The notes under the pieces are model-generated. The model was given only the letters and a program-made list of their open reading frames with translations. It ran no database searches and had not been told where the DNA came from. Positions 11,438 through 21,356 of a stretch of 21,511 nt of DNA are shown here, one piece after another. Every line of letters starts with the position of its first letter. The first letter of the stretch is position 1. Location of the stretch: the IMG/VR virus record IMGVR_UViG_3300046751_000767, positions 1 to 21,511 of that record; one strand, written 5' to 3'. The position numbers and the translations under genes are program-made. The DNA is from a virus.

Positions 11438-11463
11438 GCGTGGACATTCCGTGGACACTTTTA
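11438..11463 (+). repeat. Right arm-type repeat of attP (26 bp)
   Basis: This is the direct repeat of 11237-11262, 201 bp away and in the same orientation. Its last three bases are the integrase stop codon (TAA on the minus strand). It is a candidate integrase arm-binding site on the other side of the core. Confidence 0.75.
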
Positions 11464-12528
11464 TTCAACAGTGGCCCAGATGGCGGCCTGTTCAGCGTCC
11501 GCGTCAGCGTCAATAAATCGCGCGTAAGTGCTCAAAAACGTCTGCACAGAATGCCCTAGTATTTTGGCGCAGTAGGCTGGCTTCATGCCGGCTTCAAGCA
11601 TCCTGCAAGCGCATGAGTGGCGCACGTTGTAAGGATCACGATACCTAACCCCAGTGCTTCGCATCGCTCGCACTAATGCGCGCCCGGTATTGTTACTGCT
11701 CGTAAACGGCTGACCATACTGATTATTCACAATGTGATCGCTATGCAGCACTCTAGGGGCATCTAAGAGGGCTTTCTTGACAGCAGGGTGTACAGGCACC
11801 ATACGCTCGGTATCTGTCTTCGTGGTGCCCTCAGAGCCGTATACGCGGCTTTTATGGACGTGAAAAATGCCGTCTTTGTAATCAGACCAGCGCAAGGCAA
11901 TCACCTCGCCAGGTCGCATGCCGCAGTGGAATCGAATCAAATAAAAGATGCGCACGTTCTCTGGCAAGGCTGCAAGCAGCTGCCTCATCTCGTCCGCAGT
12001 GAAAGGGTCTATCTCGCGCTTCTCTTTCTTAATTTCTTTGGTGATCAGGCTGCACGGGTTTTCTGTTATCCACCGGCTTTTGATGGCAAGCTCAAAGACA
12101 CTGCCGCCGTCGTTGAGGATCTCGCGCAACGTCTTGGCTGACAGCTGCTTGCGGTAAATGCCGCGCATCATTTCTTGCACGTCGCCGTAACGGATCTGCG
12201 TGATTGGCCAATCGGCAAACTCAGGCATCCAGTAATTGTTCAGTCGGCTTTTAACGCTACGCCTAGCGCTCGGTTTGCCGCGCTCTAGTATATCGAGTCG
12301 CGTTTGCGCCAGTTCGCCAAAGGTAGGGCTGCGACCTTCTGGTCTGCCATCGTGCGGGTTTTCGAGTAAATCTTTGATGCGCCGCGCTCGTATCTGCGCG
12401 GCTTTTATTATGTTAGCTGGCGTGTAATTGAGCGTGAGGACTTCCGTGACGCGCTTTTTTCCGTCCATGAATTTGATTTGGCACTTGCCTCTGCGCTCAT
12501 AGACGCCGGTCGTTCTTTTGTCTGCCAT
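11461..12528 (-). CDS. int: Tyrosine-recombinase integrase
   Basis: This 355-residue site-specific recombinase would join attP to a host tRNA gene. The N-terminal arm-binding part spans residues 1-60 and the SAM-like core-binding part about 65-165. The catalytic domain runs from about 175. The catalytic residues are R205 (HCGMRPGE), a lysine near 237 (TTKTDTERMVPV), R303 in YNVRHS, H326 (ILGHS) and Y335 (STYARF). The usual first His of the HxxR box is Y300 here, a known variation. GGAGG lies 11 nt before the ATG. The gene lies next to attP and overlaps the excisionase out of frame. Confidence 0.93.
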   Translation of the reverse strand: MADKRTTGVYERRGKCQIKFMDGKKRVTEVLTLNYTPANIIKAAQIRARRIKDLLENPHDGRPEGRSPTFGELAQTRLDILERGKPSARRSVKSRLNNYWMPEFADWPITQIRYGDVQEMMRGIYRKQLSAKTLREILNDGGSVFELAIKSRWITENPCSLITKEIKKEKREIDPFTADEMRQLLAALPENVRIFYLIRFHCGMRPGEVIALRWSDYKDGIFHVHKSRVYGSEGTTKTDTERMVPVHPAVKKALLDAPRVLHSDHIVNNQYGQPFTSSNNTGRALVRAMRSTGVRYRDPYNVRHSCACRMLEAGMKPAYCAKILGHSVQTFLSTYARFIDADADAEQAAIWATVE

Positions 12529-16130: not shown

Positions 16131-16568
16131 TTATACAATCGGTGTTTGCAAGGTAATCACCACAGGGCTGCTCAGTTCTGCAGGCGCTTCTACCCATATC
16201 CCAAGTGACTTTGCTTCGCGACGCATCTCGTAGACGTCTTTTGACGCGATTGCGCAAACCAACGCCGGTTGCGATTTGTCTGGCGGGAAATACTGCAACT
16301 CGTAGGACCCATCCCAACAGTACATGATTAAGGGCATTTTTCTGCTGTATGAGCCGCTTTTGAAGTGGTCCATAATCGCGTCAAGCGTTGGGTGCTCGTA
16401 GCCCGCGTCCTTAAAATTGCGTTCCGTTTCCCGTAGCGGTTGCGATGCCCACCAGCCAGTCACCTCATAACTGCGTATGCCGTTCGGCATTTCGACTAAA
16501 TATCTATCGTCAGTGGTTAACATAAAGTTTATGTATTTATGAAAAAGACTACTTATTTCCATTTCCAT
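16131..16568 (-). CDS. Unknown protein co-transcribed with the repressor
   Basis: This 145-residue protein overlaps the repressor 3' end by 20 nt; ATG 16568 or ATG 16562 may be used. It contains FMLTTDDRYLVEMPNGIRSYEVTGWWASQPLRETERNFKDAGYEHPTLDAIMDHFKSG and SYELQYFPPDKSQPALVCAIASKDVYEMRREAKSLGIWVE, which looks like a small alpha/beta domain. There is no helix-turn-helix or membrane segment. Expression from the lysogeny operon suggests a part in immunity, superinfection exclusion or repressor control, but this is inference from position only. Confidence 0.6.
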   Translation of the reverse strand: MEMEISSLFHKYINFMLTTDDRYLVEMPNGIRSYEVTGWWASQPLRETERNFKDAGYEHPTLDAIMDHFKSGSYSRKMPLIMYCWDGSYELQYFPPDKSQPALVCAIASKDVYEMRREAKSLGIWVEAPAELSSPVVITLQTPIV

Positions 16569-16896
16569 TTGTTACTTCCTTGCCAGTTCTCTCTGCAGCC
16601 AGCAGCCGCTCCATTATTTTAATTACTGCCGCCTGGCTGTCAGGCGTCAGCGCTTCGATCATGTTTGCAACCTGCAAACTTTCCTTTTTATCGGACTCTT
16701 TACCAAACAACAGCCAGCTGGGGCTCACACCGAAAAACTCTGCCATCAGCACGATATGTTCGCGCGTCGGGGTTGCTTTATCGGTCTCCCATTTGTGGAT
16801 GGTGTTATGGTTGATGCCGGTGTCTGTCGCGAGCTCGCGCAGCGCCATGTCTCTGGCGGTGCGCAAATCACGCAATCGTGTACCTACTGTTTTCAT
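16549..16896 (-). CDS. CI-type repressor (HTH_3), short form
   Basis: This is a 115-residue DNA-binding repressor. ATG 16896 is preferred over 16968 because it has AAAGGAG about 10 nt upstream and starts the domain (MKTVGTRLRDLRTARDM). Helix-turn-helix: ALRELATDTGINHNTIHKWETDKATPTREHIVLMAEFFGVSPSWLLFG. The remaining 50 residues are a helical oligomerisation-type tail. There is no S24/LexA-type peptidase domain, so self-cleavage after DNA damage is not expected and induction must work another way. It is divergent to the Cro-like gene, with operators in between, and is co-transcribed with the 145-residue unknown gene. Confidence 0.85.
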   Translation of the reverse strand: MKTVGTRLRDLRTARDMALRELATDTGINHNTIHKWETDKATPTREHIVLMAEFFGVSPSWLLFGKESDKKESLQVANMIEALTPDSQAAVIKIMERLLAAERTGKEVTNGNGNK

Positions 16897-16916
16897 TCCA
16901 ATGTGTCTCCTTTGAC

Positions 16917-16933
16917 CCGCTTTTTTAAAGCGG
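16917..16933. promoter_or_regulatory. Inverted repeat in the repressor leader
   Basis: CCGCTTT and AAAGCGG form a perfect 7-bp inverted repeat with a TTT spacer. It lies upstream of the repressor's Shine-Dalgarno sequence. It could be an operator or an mRNA hairpin; the sequence does not decide between them. Confidence 0.45.
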
Positions 16934-16941
16934 CCGTCGAG

Positions 16942-16960
16942 TGTATACAATGTGTATACA
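16942..16960. promoter_or_regulatory. Double TGTATACA operator between repressor and cro
   Basis: Two identical self-palindromic octamers, TGTATACA, lie at 16942-16949 and 16953-16960. They are 11 bp apart, one helical turn. The position in the divergent region fits cooperative binding by dimers of the phage repressor. TATACA within it may also serve as a -10 box for the repressor promoter. Confidence 0.6.
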
Positions 16961-16982
16961 GCGAGCAACTGTCTACTAATTG

Positions 16983-17019: not shown

Positions 17020-17208
17020 ATGACGCCGACTAAAACCTTTGAAAAAATCCGCGCTGCGCAGCTGGCGCGAGACTTAAACCTGAACCGTCAAACCGTTTAT
17101 AAGTGGCAAGAGCGCGGACGCATACCAGCTGAGCGCGTCAAGGCTGTCGCGGAAGCAACGGGGCTTACGCTCGCGGAGCTACGACCAGACCTGTTCGCGG
17201 ATGGCTGA
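17020..17208 (+). CDS. Cro/YdaS-like helix-turn-helix regulator
   Basis: This is a 62-residue protein. The helix-turn-helix AAQLARDLNLNRQTVYKWQERGRIPAERVKAVAEATGLTLAELRPDLF is typical of Cro and YdaS-type phage regulators, including the closing ELRPD(L/V)F phrase. It is the first gene of the rightward early operon, divergent to the repressor, and overlaps the primase-helicase start by 8 nt (ATGGCTGA). It probably shuts off repressor transcription and so favours lytic growth. Confidence 0.85.
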   Translation: MTPTKTFEKIRAAQLARDLNLNRQTVYKWQERGRIPAERVKAVAEATGLTLAELRPDLFADG

Positions 17209-19156
17209 GGCGATGACCGACCGCGAGGGTGCGAGAGAGGAGGCGCGGCGACTGGTCGAAGAGGGACTGACGGTCGTGCCGGCTCACCCGGTTGAAAAGA
17301 GACCACTGGTGCCCTGGAAGCGCTACCAGGATCAACCGCCAGCAGAAGAAGAAGTAAACCACTGGCTGTCGACGCAGAAGTTTAGCGGCTGCAACTGGGC
17401 AATTCTGACTGGTCGGCAGGTGGTGGTGGTCGATACTGACTCAGATGAAGCGACCGTGTTTTGGGAGACGCAAGCTACCCACACGCCGCGGCGCACGATC
17501 ACGGCCAAGGGCAAGCATTTTTTTTACCAGGTCAATCCCAATTTCGAGGTGCGCAACGGCGTTAACCCAGAGCTCAAGATTGACCTGCGCGGCACTGGCG
17601 GCTGCGTCATTGCGCCCGGCTCGATCCATGAGACTGGGCACGTCTATTGTCGCGACGAAGACCCTGGCGTTGATACATGGTGGCGAGAGCTTCCAATGCT
17701 CACGGCTAAAGACATACGGCTGATCGACGGGTTCAATACGCCAAAGCCGCAGCCAGTCGAAAGCACTGGCTTTAACGTAACGGACGCGGGCTCCCATGAG
17801 GGCAGTCGGAACAACGACCTAGCCAGCGAAATTGGGCGTCTTATCAATCGGGGGCTCGACAAGGTCGACGCTTTCGAGCAGGCGCTACTCATTAACAAGC
17901 GCAACACGCCACCACTAGACGCGGATGAAGTGGCACGCACAGTAGAGTCGGTGTACCAAACAGCCGAAGACAATCGCGAGCGCGCTGAAGCAGAGCTCGC
18001 AAAGCAGCAAGAAAAGCAACCGACCAGCCTACAGCCAAAGCCCTTTGTGCTAGGTGACCCTGAGCAGCTGCCGGCCCGGCAGTTCGTCTGGGGGCATGCT
18101 TACCCGCGCGGGGTGGTGAGCGTCACGGTAGCGCCAGGCGGGCTAGGTAAAAGCACCATCATCACTGCCGAGGCCGTTGCGATGACTACCGGGCAATCTT
18201 TTTTGGGCCGGCATACGGACGCTCGCAAGTGCTGGCTCTGGAATCTCGAAGACCCGATAGACGAGATATACCGCAAGGTGTATGCCATCGCGCAGCACTA
18301 CCAGCTGACGCAGGCAGACATCGCCGACCGGCTGCTGATCAATAGCGGGCGCGATGAGCCGCTCATCTTGGCGCAAACCATCGGCGGTCATAACCTGCTG
18401 ACGCCGGTCGCGGACCAGCTGACTGAGCACATCATCGCCAACAAAATCGACTGCGTGATCGTTGACCCGTTTGTGAGCAGCCATCAGCTGAGTGAGAACG
18501 ATAACGTCGCGATCGACATGGTCGTCAAACGCTGGGCACAAGTGGCCAGCGACAGCAACTGCGCCATTCACTTGGTTCACCATGTTCGCAAAGACAATGG
18601 CATGGGCGGCGCTTCCGTTGCCGACGCCAGGGGCGCAAGTGCCCTGGTCGACGCGGCACGCTTTGTCCGCCGACTGCAGCGCATGACCGCGGACGAGGCC
18701 CGCAACGCGGGCATCGACGAGGACCAGTTCTGGCGCTACACCCGCGAAGGCGACAGCAAAAACAATCTGTCACCACCATCAGCTGATAGCACCTGGCGCA
18801 AGCTCATCAGCATCGATCTACCAAACGGCGACAGCGTAGGCGTAGCAGAGCACTGGCAGTGGCCTGATGCGTTTAGCGACGTGACACGCAATGACCTAGA
18901 GGCCGTGCAGCGGCGCGTTGCCAGTAGCGAGTGGCGCGAGAACCCAAGGGCCAAGGACTGGGTGGGCATTGCCGTTGCGGAGGCGCTAAACCTCGACGTC
19001 AACGACTCTTATAACAAGGCCAAGATCAGGCAGCTGCTGCGGACCTGGATAGAGAACGGTGCGCTGCGCGTGACTGAGCAACCAGACAAGCACCGCAAGA
19101 TGCGGGCCTTTGTGTCGGTTGGGCAGTGGATGCATGAGGGTGAGGTGGATGAGTAG
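17201..19156 (+). CDS. Primase-polymerase fused to RepA-type helicase
   Basis: This is a 651-residue replication protein. Residues 10-180 form a bifunctional primase/polymerase (prim-pol) domain: D78 and D80 in VVVVDTDSDE, H106 in GKHFF and D128 in LKIDLRGTGG. A helical linker leads to a RecA/AAA_25 (RepA-like) helicase with Walker A APGGLGKST (311-319), Walker B VIVDPF (D422) and the HLVHHVRK strand near 460. The C terminus may be a winged helix (WVGIAVAEALNLDVNDSYNKAKIRQLLRTWIENGAL). It would start and unwind phage DNA replication. ATG 17201 overlaps cro; ATG 17213 is an alternative. Confidence 0.88.
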   Translation: MAEAMTDREGAREEARRLVEEGLTVVPAHPVEKRPLVPWKRYQDQPPAEEEVNHWLSTQKFSGCNWAILTGRQVVVVDTDSDEATVFWETQATHTPRRTITAKGKHFFYQVNPNFEVRNGVNPELKIDLRGTGGCVIAPGSIHETGHVYCRDEDPGVDTWWRELPMLTAKDIRLIDGFNTPKPQPVESTGFNVTDAGSHEGSRNNDLASEIGRLINRGLDKVDAFEQALLINKRNTPPLDADEVARTVESVYQTAEDNRERAEAELAKQQEKQPTSLQPKPFVLGDPEQLPARQFVWGHAYPRGVVSVTVAPGGLGKSTIITAEAVAMTTGQSFLGRHTDARKCWLWNLEDPIDEIYRKVYAIAQHYQLTQADIADRLLINSGRDEPLILAQTIGGHNLLTPVADQLTEHIIANKIDCVIVDPFVSSHQLSENDNVAIDMVVKRWAQVASDSNCAIHLVHHVRKDNGMGGASVADARGASALVDAARFVRRLQRMTADEARNAGIDEDQFWRYTREGDSKNNLSPPSADSTWRKLISIDLPNGDSVGVAEHWQWPDAFSDVTRNDLEAVQRRVASSEWRENPRAKDWVGIAVAEALNLDVNDSYNKAKIRQLLRTWIENGALRVTEQPDKHRKMRAFVSVGQWMHEGEVDE

Positions 19157-19964
19157 GCTGGTGGTCATCAGCCTTGGCGCTGGCGTGCAGTCATCAGTCA
19201 TGGCGCTCATGGCGGCAAAGGGCGAGATAACGCCTATGCCTGATTGCGCCATCTTCGCCGACACGCAAGCGGAGCCAGACCATGTCTATGAATGGCTAGA
19301 TTGGCTTGAGACACAGCTGCCTTTTCCAATTCATCGAGTAACAGCTGGCAACTTGCGCGACGACCTGATTGCAAGCTCGCAAACGGGAGCGAGGGTGCCA
19401 AATCCACCGCTGTTCGTGCAGACGCCGAAGAGTGACGGGATGCTGTTTAGGCAATGCACCGTCGATTACAAAATCACGCCTATTTACAAAAAGCTGCGCG
19501 AGCTTATTGGGCTGAAGCCAAGGCAACGCGCGCCAAAGCAAGTCGCGGTCGAGCAGTGGATAGGCATAAGCCAAGACGAAATCCAGCGCATGAAGATGAG
19601 CCGCGACAAGTGGGTGGAGAACCGCTGGCCGTTGCTTGAGAAGCGCATGAGTCGCATTCATTGCCTACAGTGGATGAAGGATCACGGTTACAACGAACTA
19701 CCGCGCAAAAGCGCCTGCACGTTTTGCCCGTACCACGACAACGCGACTTGGCGTGAAATGCGGGCGAACGACAAAAAGTCATGGACTGAAGCTGTCGTGG
19801 TTGACCACCTAATTCGCGACGGCATCAACCAAACCGCCAAGGGTAACAAACTCTACCTGCACCGCAGCCGCGTGCCGCTGGACGAGGCTGACCTTCGCGA
19901 CCCTGCAGAGAACCAACAGACTTTTTCTTTTATGGACGAGTGCGATGGGATGTGTGGTGTCTGA
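19149..19964 (+). CDS. PP-loop ATPase of the PAPS-reductase type
   Basis: This is a 271-residue protein. ATG 19149 overlaps the previous stop by 8 nt and has GGGTGAGG upstream; the longer in-frame start at 19110 has no support. The PP-loop variant SLGAGVQSS (8-16) is followed by FADTQAEPDHVYEWLDWLE and WIGISQDEIQRMK, typical of a phage family annotated as PAPS reductase-like. Four cysteines, C103, C172 and C190-x2-C193, are placed as in metal- or cluster-bearing PP-loop sulphur-transfer enzymes. The CDGMC end adds two. A role in DNA or nucleotide modification is inferred from the methyltransferase that overlaps its end. Confidence 0.75.
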   Translation: MSRLVVISLGAGVQSSVMALMAAKGEITPMPDCAIFADTQAEPDHVYEWLDWLETQLPFPIHRVTAGNLRDDLIASSQTGARVPNPPLFVQTPKSDGMLFRQCTVDYKITPIYKKLRELIGLKPRQRAPKQVAVEQWIGISQDEIQRMKMSRDKWVENRWPLLEKRMSRIHCLQWMKDHGYNELPRKSACTFCPYHDNATWREMRANDKKSWTEAVVVDHLIRDGINQTAKGNKLYLHRSRVPLDEADLRDPAENQQTFSFMDECDGMCGV

Positions 19965-21204
19965 TGTGGATCATTCCGGCCAACTACCCACAGTCCTCTC
20001 GCTATGCACTGGATACGGTGGCATCGAGCGAGGACTTGAGCTTGCCGGGTATCAACATAGAACAGTCGCTCATGTGGAGATCGAAGCCTTCGCCGCTGCG
20101 AACTTGGTTGCAAAGATGGAGGCGGGACAGCTGGTTCCGGCACCTGTGTGGACGGATCTTAAAACCCTGCCAGCACACTGCTTTCGAGACAGAGTTGATG
20201 TGCTCACTGGCGGTTATCCCTGCCAGCCGTTTAGCGCCGCTGGACTGCGCAAAGGCGCCGAAGACCCAAGACACCTCTGGCCATTCATCTACGACCACAT
20301 ACGAACAATTAGACCTGTTCGCTGCTTTTTCGAGAACGTCGAAGGACACATCAGCCTGGGACTCAGACAGGTCATCGATGATCTGGTCGGACTTGGTTAC
20401 GAAACGACGTGGGGAATATTCAGCGCGGCTGAAGTTGGCGCACCTCACCAGAGAAAGCGGGTGTACATCTTGGCCTACGCCAACAGCGCAGGACAACAAC
20501 CAAGTGAGTGGCAACCCAAATCACCCGAAGCGCGGCACAACGCTGGGCGGGGCAGTCAGGCAATGGCCGACGCCAACAGCCAGCGACAGCGAGGGCGGGC
20601 CGAGACAGCAGGATGGCAAGCGGGGCCGGGCGCTGAAGGATCTGCCGCAACAAATGTGGCCGACGCCGACGACACAAGACTCGAACAAAGCGACCAAGAA
20701 GATGCGCGACGACCATCAGAACAACCTGACGGCAGTAGTTTTCGATCAGCCGCAATATCCCACGCCAGCAGTGGGAGACGTCGAGAAGTATCGGATGCAG
20801 GGCGACAGTCAAGCCTCGAAGAACTTAGTAGCACTGGCCAGACAGGGGAAGCTGGAGCAGTTTCCGACGCCGACAGCGCGGGACTACAAGGGCGGTTACA
20901 AAGAAGAAGCCCTGACGAGGAAGGACGGCAAGAGCAGGCGTTTCGACGCGCTACCGAACGCGGCGATCAACGGCCAAGGGACAGACAAAGTGAGGGGCCA
21001 CTTAGCAGCAAATTGGGTCGAGGGTTTGATGGGCCTGCCTCTTGGATGGACGGATCTTGGGAAATGGGGGTCGAGCGAGTGACCAACGGCCAAAACCACA
21101 GGGTTGACCGGCTGCGGTTGCTTGGTAATGGAGTAGTGCCACAAACGGCGGCCAAGGCGTGGATTGTGCTCAATGACCAGCTAATAAAGGCCATGCGTGA
21201 ATGA
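19945..21204 (+). CDS. DNA (cytosine-5) methyltransferase
   Basis: This 419-residue enzyme transfers a methyl group from SAM to cytosine C5. Motif I is LSLCTGYGGIERGLELAG (18-35) and motif IV is GGYPCQPFSAAG with nucleophile C93. Motif VI is ENV (130-132) and motif VIII is QRKRVYILAYA (169-179). Motifs IX/X follow at about 385-407 (RVDRLRLLGNGVVPQTAAKAW). The stretch between, about 180-360, is the target-recognition zone. It is low-complexity, with recurring ADA(N/D)S-type phrases, and is also open in another frame. ATG 19945 lies inside the PP-loop gene (20-nt overlap). It probably protects phage DNA from restriction. Confidence 0.9.
   Translation: MGCVVSDVDHSGQLPTVLSLCTGYGGIERGLELAGYQHRTVAHVEIEAFAAANLVAKMEAGQLVPAPVWTDLKTLPAHCFRDRVDVLTGGYPCQPFSAAGLRKGAEDPRHLWPFIYDHIRTIRPVRCFFENVEGHISLGLRQVIDDLVGLGYETTWGIFSAAEVGAPHQRKRVYILAYANSAGQQPSEWQPKSPEARHNAGRGSQAMADANSQRQRGRAETAGWQAGPGAEGSAATNVADADDTRLEQSDQEDARRPSEQPDGSSFRSAAISHASSGRRREVSDAGRQSSLEELSSTGQTGEAGAVSDADSAGLQGRLQRRSPDEEGRQEQAFRRATERGDQRPRDRQSEGPLSSKLGRGFDGPASWMDGSWEMGVERVTNGQNHRVDRLRLLGNGVVPQTAAKAWIVLNDQLIKAMRE
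19964..21082 (+). CDS. Overlapping-frame WPTP-repeat protein
   Basis: A second frame within the methyltransferase gene is open for about 370 codons. ATG 19964 forms TGATG with the PP-loop stop; the real start may be later (for example the Met at about 20198 or 20366). It encodes five repeats: WPTPTAQD (from 20471), WPTPTASD (20564), WPTPTTQD (20657), YPTPAVGD (20756) and FPTPTARD (20861). The first three are each 93 nt apart. It ends ANWVEGLMGLPLGWTDL. I recognise WPTPxAxD plus NWVExLMGxPxGWT as a recurring phage protein. Whether it is translated, or is a by-product of the methyltransferase code, cannot be settled here. Confidence 0.5.
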   Translation: MWIIPANYPQSSRYALDTVASSEDLSLPGINIEQSLMWRSKPSPLRTWLQRWRRDSWFRHLCGRILKPCQHTAFETELMCSLAVIPASRLAPLDCAKAPKTQDTSGHSSTTTYEQLDLFAAFSRTSKDTSAWDSDRSSMIWSDLVTKRRGEYSARLKLAHLTRESGCTSWPTPTAQDNNQVSGNPNHPKRGTTLGGAVRQWPTPTASDSEGGPRQQDGKRGRALKDLPQQMWPTPTTQDSNKATKKMRDDHQNNLTAVVFDQPQYPTPAVGDVEKYRMQGDSQASKNLVALARQGKLEQFPTPTARDYKGGYKEEALTRKDGKSRRFDALPNAAINGQGTDKVRGHLAANWVEGLMGLPLGWTDLGKWGSSE

Positions 21205-21356
21205 ATGAATACGTGAATAGCGTTTGCGCCAGTGGGCTGTTTCTGACTGGCGCAGACTGGCGCAGTCGCAACCGCCAGATACAGTGCTGCGCCGGTACTA
21301 ATTTACTAGTACCGGCAGCTAACTACTGGCGCACTTTTTGGGGGCTGCAAAAGTAG
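21201..21356 (+). CDS. Possible 51-residue ORF
   Basis: An ATGA overlap with the methyltransferase stop opens a 51-codon frame ending in TAG at 21354-21356. The product (NEYVNSVCASGLFLTGADWRSRNRQIQCC...) has no recognisable motif, and the same DNA carries several repeats and a long palindrome. A regulatory or replication spacer is therefore an equally good reading. Confidence 0.3.
   Translation: MNEYVNSVCASGLFLTGADWRSRNRQIQCCAGTNLLVPAANYWRTFWGLQK
21225..21333. repeat. ACTGGCGCA iteron-like repeats
   Basis: The 9-mer ACTGGCGCA occurs directly at 21246-21254, 21256-21264 and 21325-21333, and inverted (TGCGCCAGT) at 21225-21233. The first two direct copies are in tandem, 10 bp apart. A degenerate copy may lie at 21353-21361. 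This density in 110 bp suggests a protein-binding array: an origin or an operator. Confidence 0.6.
21291..21316. promoter_or_regulatory. Perfect 10-bp palindrome within the repeat array
   Basis: GCCGGTACTA and TAGTACCGGC flank the 6-bp spacer ATTTAC. No T-run follows at once (ACTTTTTG comes about 17 nt later), so an operator or a cruciform is more likely than a terminator. Confidence 0.55.

Follow-up and report, generated by a model that had tools for sequence, protein, structure and literature searches.

The genome fragment analyzed here (the window, 21,511 nt of a viral record) very likely encodes a heterodimeric, or split, C5-cytosine DNA methyltransferase with two subunits encoded in different reading frames that overlap over almost their full length; we place the probability of this reading at about 0.88. 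The alpha subunit would supply motif X as well as motifs I-VIII, which serve AdoMet binding and catalysis. The beta subunit, read in the +1 frame relative to alpha, would supply an array of WPTP cassettes in place of target-recognition domains, followed by motif IX. We predict that ribosomes arriving at TGATGTG, after the PP-loop gene, initiate beta at the ATG and alpha two bases further along, at the GTG. In the proposed mechanism the two chains assemble into a single enzyme that methylates phage DNA at a sequence or sequences set by the cassettes. The computational support comes from open frames under selection, a constraint divided between them, the split of motifs IX and X, paired starts, cassette exchange, and single-chain relatives. 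There are no expression, proteomic, or methylome data, and translation of both frames, assembly, and methylation are inferred.

Gene layout of the locus

The coordinates of the features are listed in Table 1. From its ATG, beta lies wholly inside the alpha gene. The WPTP frame contains no stop over 19892-21079; its stop codon is at 21080-21082, so that beta ends within alpha. Five [W/Y/F]PTP repeats start 93, 93, 99, and 105 nt apart, and NWVEGLMGLPLGWT is found near the end of the frame. An earlier note, made without database searches, had claimed a second frame open for about 370 codons, five such repeats with the first three exactly 93 nt apart, the NWVEGLMGLPLGWT end, and bases that read as MADANS/VADADS-type peptides in one frame and WPTP peptides in the other. 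All of this held. Its claim that the methyltransferase frame has all core motifs failed: motifs I-VIII and X (RLLGNGVVP) are in alpha, and motif IX is in the WPTP frame.

Alpha meets the criterion for a C5 methyltransferase, with motifs I, IV (PCQ), VI (ENV), and VIII all in one chain. The Pfam DNA_methylase family (PF00145) matches alpha at 3.1e-31 over residues 17-195 only, corresponding to motifs I-VIII, and the PHROG match is phrog_363 (3.5e-57). No Pfam match was found for beta alone. Beta matches phrog_1008, 'DNA methyltransferase' (1.1e-30), and the motif X end of alpha weakly matches the C-terminal part of the same family; together these matches were the earliest indication that beta is part of the enzyme.

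The neighbors of alpha and beta are the PP-loop and primase genes. A cognate restriction enzyme was sought, and the next gene after alpha, which is cut by the window end, has no Pfam match. The first listed start of the PP-loop gene is TTG 19110, and the true start may be further downstream. PP-loop-like genes also flank the methyltransferase in three other loci (upstream in L109, downstream in L100 and L105). This proximity, and the fact that in the window the PP-loop gene adjoins and overlaps alpha/beta, suggest a functional link. Elsewhere in the window are genes for a Prim-Pol/AAA primase-helicase (17201-19156), a tyrosine integrase (11461-12528), and a Cro/C1-type repressor (16549-16968), because of which the virus looks temperate. 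The intergenic stretch after alpha (21220-21333) contains direct and inverted copies of (A)CTGGCGCA, among them two perfect copies of GACTGGCGCA in tandem at 21245-21264. A perfect inverted repeat of 10 nt lies at 21291-21316. This stretch could be an operator, origin, or terminator.

Table 1. Features of the alpha/beta locus in window coordinates
Feature	Position	Strand	Basis or remark
Source of window	1 to 21,511		IMG/VR virus record IMGVR_UViG_3300046751_000767
PP-loop / PAPS-reductase-like gene	19110..19964	+	phrog_424, 1.4e-47; TGA overlaps beta ATG (TGATG)
Beta subunit (WPTP frame, +1 to alpha)	19964..21082	+	372 codons from ATG 19964; phrog_1008, selection, stop avoidance
ATGTG double start	19964..19968	+	ATG = beta, GTG = alpha, one G common to both
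Alpha subunit, putative C5 cytosine methyltransferase, motifs I-VIII and X, without IX	19966..21204	+	PF00145, phrog_363
Alpha start choices			GTG 19966; in-frame alternatives upstream: ATG 19945, GTG 19957
Alpha motif I (LSLCTGYGG)	19996..20022	+	alignment of homologues
Alpha motif IV (PCQPF, catalytic Cys)	20218..20232	+	alignment of homologues
Alpha motif VI (ENV)	20332..20340	+	alignment of homologues
Alpha motif VIII (QRKRVYIL)	20449..20472	+	alignment of homologues
Region B (motif VIII to motif X)	20473..21114	+	alpha is a weakly constrained spacer (DADS/DANS peptides); constrained protein in beta frame
Beta cassette 1 (WPTPTAQD..., cluster A)	20471..20563	+	
Beta cassette 2 (WPTPTASD..., cluster E)	20564..20656	+	
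Beta cassette 3 (WPTPTTQD..., cluster G)	20657..20755	+	
Beta cassette 4 (YPTPAVGD..., cluster M)	20756..20860	+	
Beta cassette 5 (FPTPTARD..., cluster J)	20861..21001	+	
Beta motif IX (LAANWVEGLMGLPLGWT)	21002..21052	+	family consensus LNPxWVExLMGxPxGWT; in beta in 125/125 loci; in-frame counterpart in single-chain relatives
Alpha motif X (RLLGNGVVPQT)	21115..21147	+	

Selection on both frames

Homologous loci were gathered twice independently, with beta and with alpha as the query. With either query the +1 frame is open in the homologues, aside from truncated contigs and one small group of related loci (L068, L069, L072, L073, and L077) described below. When synonymous alpha codons in the window were shuffled, 5.5 stops were expected in the WPTP frame before motif VIII and none was seen (P=0.0003); the remaining frame carries eight stops over the same region. 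Across 90 loci, the region before motif VIII (region A) has 3 beta-frame stops versus 265.5 expected. Shuffling of beta codons in region B, at 89 loci, leads to an expectation of 358.6 alpha-frame stops, and there are none. For comparison, +1-frame stops occur about as often as expected in five single-chain relatives. Among six canonical phage methyltransferases, stop depletion is significant in only one (P=0.006).

We estimated overlap-aware omega from 41 disjoint locus pairs, classing each substitution by what it does in the two frames, with kappa 2 and without correction for multiple hits. Before motif VIII, omega_alpha is 0.33 (0.30-0.37) and omega_beta is 0.76 (0.68-0.83), a value that indicates only weak constraint on this part of beta. 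From motif VIII to X, omega_beta is 0.31 (0.22-0.42) and omega_alpha is 0.80 (0.61-1.03). Thus, the two proteins divide the constraint, with alpha constrained in the first half and beta in the second. Region B substitutions number 403 at alpha codon position 1, which is beta position 3, versus 134 and 187 at the other positions. The loci are distinct by sequence, yet not all are independent.

These computational results show that the WPTP frame is a gene under selection and that both frames are open under selection; translation is inferred. The dual coding proposed in the earlier note is supported by the phase-specific substitution, the avoidance of stops in both directions, and the conserved paired starts. 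Its suggestion that the zone between motifs VIII and X is shaped by the second frame is supported by the omega values there. Two outcomes that it had named as refuting, stops in homologues at normal frequency and a lack of synonymous constraint, were checked and neither was met.

Division of motifs IX and X and single-chain relatives

Motifs IX and X were located with HMMs in 125 distinct complete loci. Motif IX is never in alpha and is in beta in every locus. Motif X is in alpha in 114 loci, one of which is the window, in beta in nine, and undetected in two; it never occurs in both. Taken together, the two window frames have the IX-like segment and the motif X expected of a C5 enzyme. Where X is in beta, alpha in most cases terminates no further than about 80 nt from motif VIII. 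Regular-expression screens for the motifs produced false negatives, with beta or alpha apparently missing from L061, L072, L089, and other loci, and were superseded by the HMM motifs and by reading of the frames.

In some relatives the same elements occur in one chain. A Nocardioides sp. J54 contig (L111, the same as IMG/VR L194) encodes motifs I-VIII, PTP repeats, an IX-like segment, and X in a single chain, and this order recurs in the mycobacteriophages DillTech15, mcgavigan, Moonbeam, and prophiFSQJ01-1 (L196 and L206-L208 are among the single-chain loci). The Nocardioides locus, a prophage, matches both the alpha family phrog_363 and the beta family phrog_1008 (2.9e-43). The beta profile matches the single-chain profile over the repeats and motif IX with 97% probability (E 4.8e-11). 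Based on the division of IX and X, the single-chain relatives, and this profile match, we interpret beta as the half of the same enzyme that contributes target recognition and motif IX, an identity that the earlier note did not propose. That both chains are needed is inferred.

The label IX for the beta motif is based on its pattern, its position, and the single-chain relatives, without a significant direct match to canonical enzymes. The L111 segment LSPRFVEFLMGLPAGW aligns with motif IX of M.HhaI, LHPRECARVMGYPDSY, and this alignment is not significant alone. Comparison of beta with six canonical methyltransferases by hhalign gave no significant match (E 0.7), and a search of the PDB with the beta profile found nothing. 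AlphaFold2 predictions for beta alone, from the window and from a type-2 relative, were of low confidence (pLDDT 56 and 54), and the fold was not shown.

Paired starts

Of 98 distinct loci, 97 have a beta start with an alpha start just downstream of it, at a distance of 2 nt (88 loci), 5 nt (five), 8 nt (one), or 11 nt (three). The 2-nt pairs are mostly ATGTGGAT, which is read as MWI.P in beta and M-D in alpha. Over the 98 loci the beta start codon is ATG in 84, GTG in 10, and TTG in four, and the conserved start usually has a purine-rich Shine-Dalgarno-like stretch. In 13 loci an alpha-frame stop lies no more than 10 nt upstream without an intervening start, so alpha must start at or after the paired-start point. 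In the window the junction with the PP-loop gene reads TGATGTG. The earlier proposal that a TGATG coupling to this gene offers a start for the second frame is supported by the conserved paired starts.

In the small related group mentioned above, the beta frame has a stop followed immediately by an ATG, as CATAAAAAATGCAATA in L068, L072, and L077. The essential part of beta may start internally in these five loci, with the upstream piece serving as a translated leader, a possibility that is inferred. The leader would comprise the first 107-108 codons, and termination-reinitiation is possible. In another virus (L013/L118; 4353-4357 of L013), alpha has an in-frame TAA between motifs VIII and X, and beta is intact. 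The TAA is also present in a second contig (L014/L119). Both exceptions, the interrupted beta frames and this alpha stop, weigh against the two-subunit reading.

Cassette arrays

The beta proteins of 98 loci comprise 286 segments, and near-identical segments recur in varied order and with varied neighbors. Over motifs I-VIII the window alpha is 92-94% identical to that of L008, L009, L012, L015, L018, and L021, and the cassette strings of these loci differ from the window string, A-E-G-M-J. The first cassette is ~76% identical to one cassette of Escherichia phage ESSI2, although a tblastn search with the full-length window beta reached just 11% coverage in that phage. The best shared cassette is more similar than alpha, by at least 12 points of identity, in 51 of 403 locus pairs.

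Tandem exchangeable segments between motifs VIII and IX meet one criterion for multispecific methyltransferases with tandem target-recognition domains (TRDs). The WPTP repeats act as exchangeable cassettes where the target-recognition region stands. They probably choose the target, although this role is inferred, and recognition of one target per cassette is inferred by analogy. A bolder reading, toward which we lean with limited confidence, is that this broadly distributed family of phage enzymes has a specificity subunit formed by a shuffling cassette array in the second frame of its own catalytic subunit, with a shared ATGTG start. A change of cassette would then alter two proteins at once, and one enzyme could have several specificities.

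Alternative explanations

The open frame might merely reflect alpha codon usage or GC-rich composition, with VADADS repeats read out of frame and no gene present. It is true that the same bases give MADANS/VADADS and WPTPTA in the two frames, and an open frame in region B alone is unsurprising given alpha (P=0.13). However, substitutions in region B favor the third position of beta codons, stops are absent from region A, where alpha dictates the sequence, at nearly all of the 90 loci (3 versus 265.5 expected), and the starts are conserved. We regard this explanation as all but excluded, because selection on the beta frame is seen.

Two other explanations accept beta as coding, and both appear very unlikely. 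Alpha could be a complete one-chain methyltransferase, and beta an overprinted, independent phage protein with another job. Consistent with this, beta alone is without a Pfam match, and its start lies at the beginning of the gene, a long way from the recognition region. However, motif IX is always in beta and never in alpha, motif X switches between frames, and single-chain relatives fuse the alpha and beta parts. An unrelated overprinted beta was rejected on these grounds. Alternatively, programmed frameshifting could yield a single polypeptide, with ribosomes moving from alpha to beta past motif VIII and returning to alpha ahead of motif X. The collinear motif order (I-VIII in alpha, IX in beta, X in alpha) would fit, and a single-chain ancestor is plausible. 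However, a separate start is conserved for beta, usually accompanied by a Shine-Dalgarno-like stretch, the beta frame is open under selection through region A, which frameshifting would not need, and alpha ends just after motif VIII in several relatives. The split enzyme with two separately started subunits remains our preferred reading.

Distribution, annotation, and significance

One search matched more than 500 viral stretches, a number that is a lower bound. Related loci occur in Flavobacteriaceae, Verrucomicrobia, Actinoplanes, Alicyclobacillus, and others, and a more distant subfamily is present in E. coli chromosomes and Enterobacteriaceae plasmid records. ESSI2 DNA was matched in 66 of 5426 E. 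coli genomes. For the Enterobacteriaceae subfamily the motif HMMs score weakly, and the pattern LNPxxxxWLMGxP was read by eye in the +1 frame.

Beta is unannotated in all six Enterobacteriaceae records inspected (L210-L215; E. coli chromosomes, and Klebsiella and Salmonella plasmid records). One of these, L211, is annotated as two incomplete methyltransferase fragments, though long alpha and beta frames are both open. The plasmid collection describes its own gene table as incomplete. Given the six records without beta and the gene marked as incomplete fragments, beta has probably been missed widely, and current annotation likely records only the alpha half in most cases.

The locus presents two long genes of prokaryotic viruses that overlap on the same strand nearly in full, and this overlap is conserved. 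If the split-enzyme reading is true, there is a clear reason for both frames: they encode the halves of one enzyme. If each cassette sets a target, the arrays would offer ready-made modular specificities for cytosine methyltransferases and a natural experiment on the coevolution of overlapping frames.

Comparison with known systems

The closest precedent is M.EcoHK31I (YGGCCR), a two-polypeptide C5 methyltransferase with motifs I-VIII and X in the larger subunit and IX in the smaller (PMC3404938), the same motif layout as in the window. M.EcoHK31I likewise has its beta subunit encoded in an alternative frame within the alpha gene. However, its predicted TRD is placed in the larger subunit (PMC3404938), and it belongs to a Type II restriction-modification system, whereas window-type loci sit in phage genomes. 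The window beta, in contrast, holds cassettes, overlaps alpha along its whole length, and starts beside the alpha start. By analogy of motif layout, the window-type enzyme may work like M.EcoHK31I; its activity is inferred. In M.AquI (CYCGRG), also composed of two polypeptides, a catalytic chain has motifs I-VIII and a second chain has the distal recognition region, IX, and X (PMC3404938). The nine relatives of the window locus with motif X in beta resemble this arrangement, but the window, with X in alpha, does not meet the M.AquI-type criterion of IX and X in the second chain.

Actinobacteriophage DNA methylases (DillTech15 gene 66, mcgavigan, and Moonbeam) share the motif order with PTP repeats in one chain, and split actinobacteriophage pairs (KHumphrey 42/43 and BellusTerra 80/79) have it in two adjacent annotated genes. 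They differ from the window locus in that the annotated genes overlap little or not at all and the single-chain forms have a normal frequency of +1-frame stops. The C5 methyltransferases of SPR and phi3T are multispecific, with tandem TRDs in one chain. Like them, window-type loci have variable, exchangeable segments between motifs VIII and IX, next to a catalytic part that varies little; unlike them, the array lies in a second frame.

In PHROG, families 363 (alpha) and 1008 (beta) are both named 'DNA methyltransferase'. The literature search, which could not reach most subscription papers, returned no account of these families as overlapping halves, nor of the window-type family. By motif layout, the window-type locus is a variant of the split C5 methyltransferase already known from M.EcoHK31I, and its new features, within the literature searched, are the near-total overlap, the ATGTG start pair, the second-frame cassette arrays, the switching of motif X between frames, and the breadth of the family.
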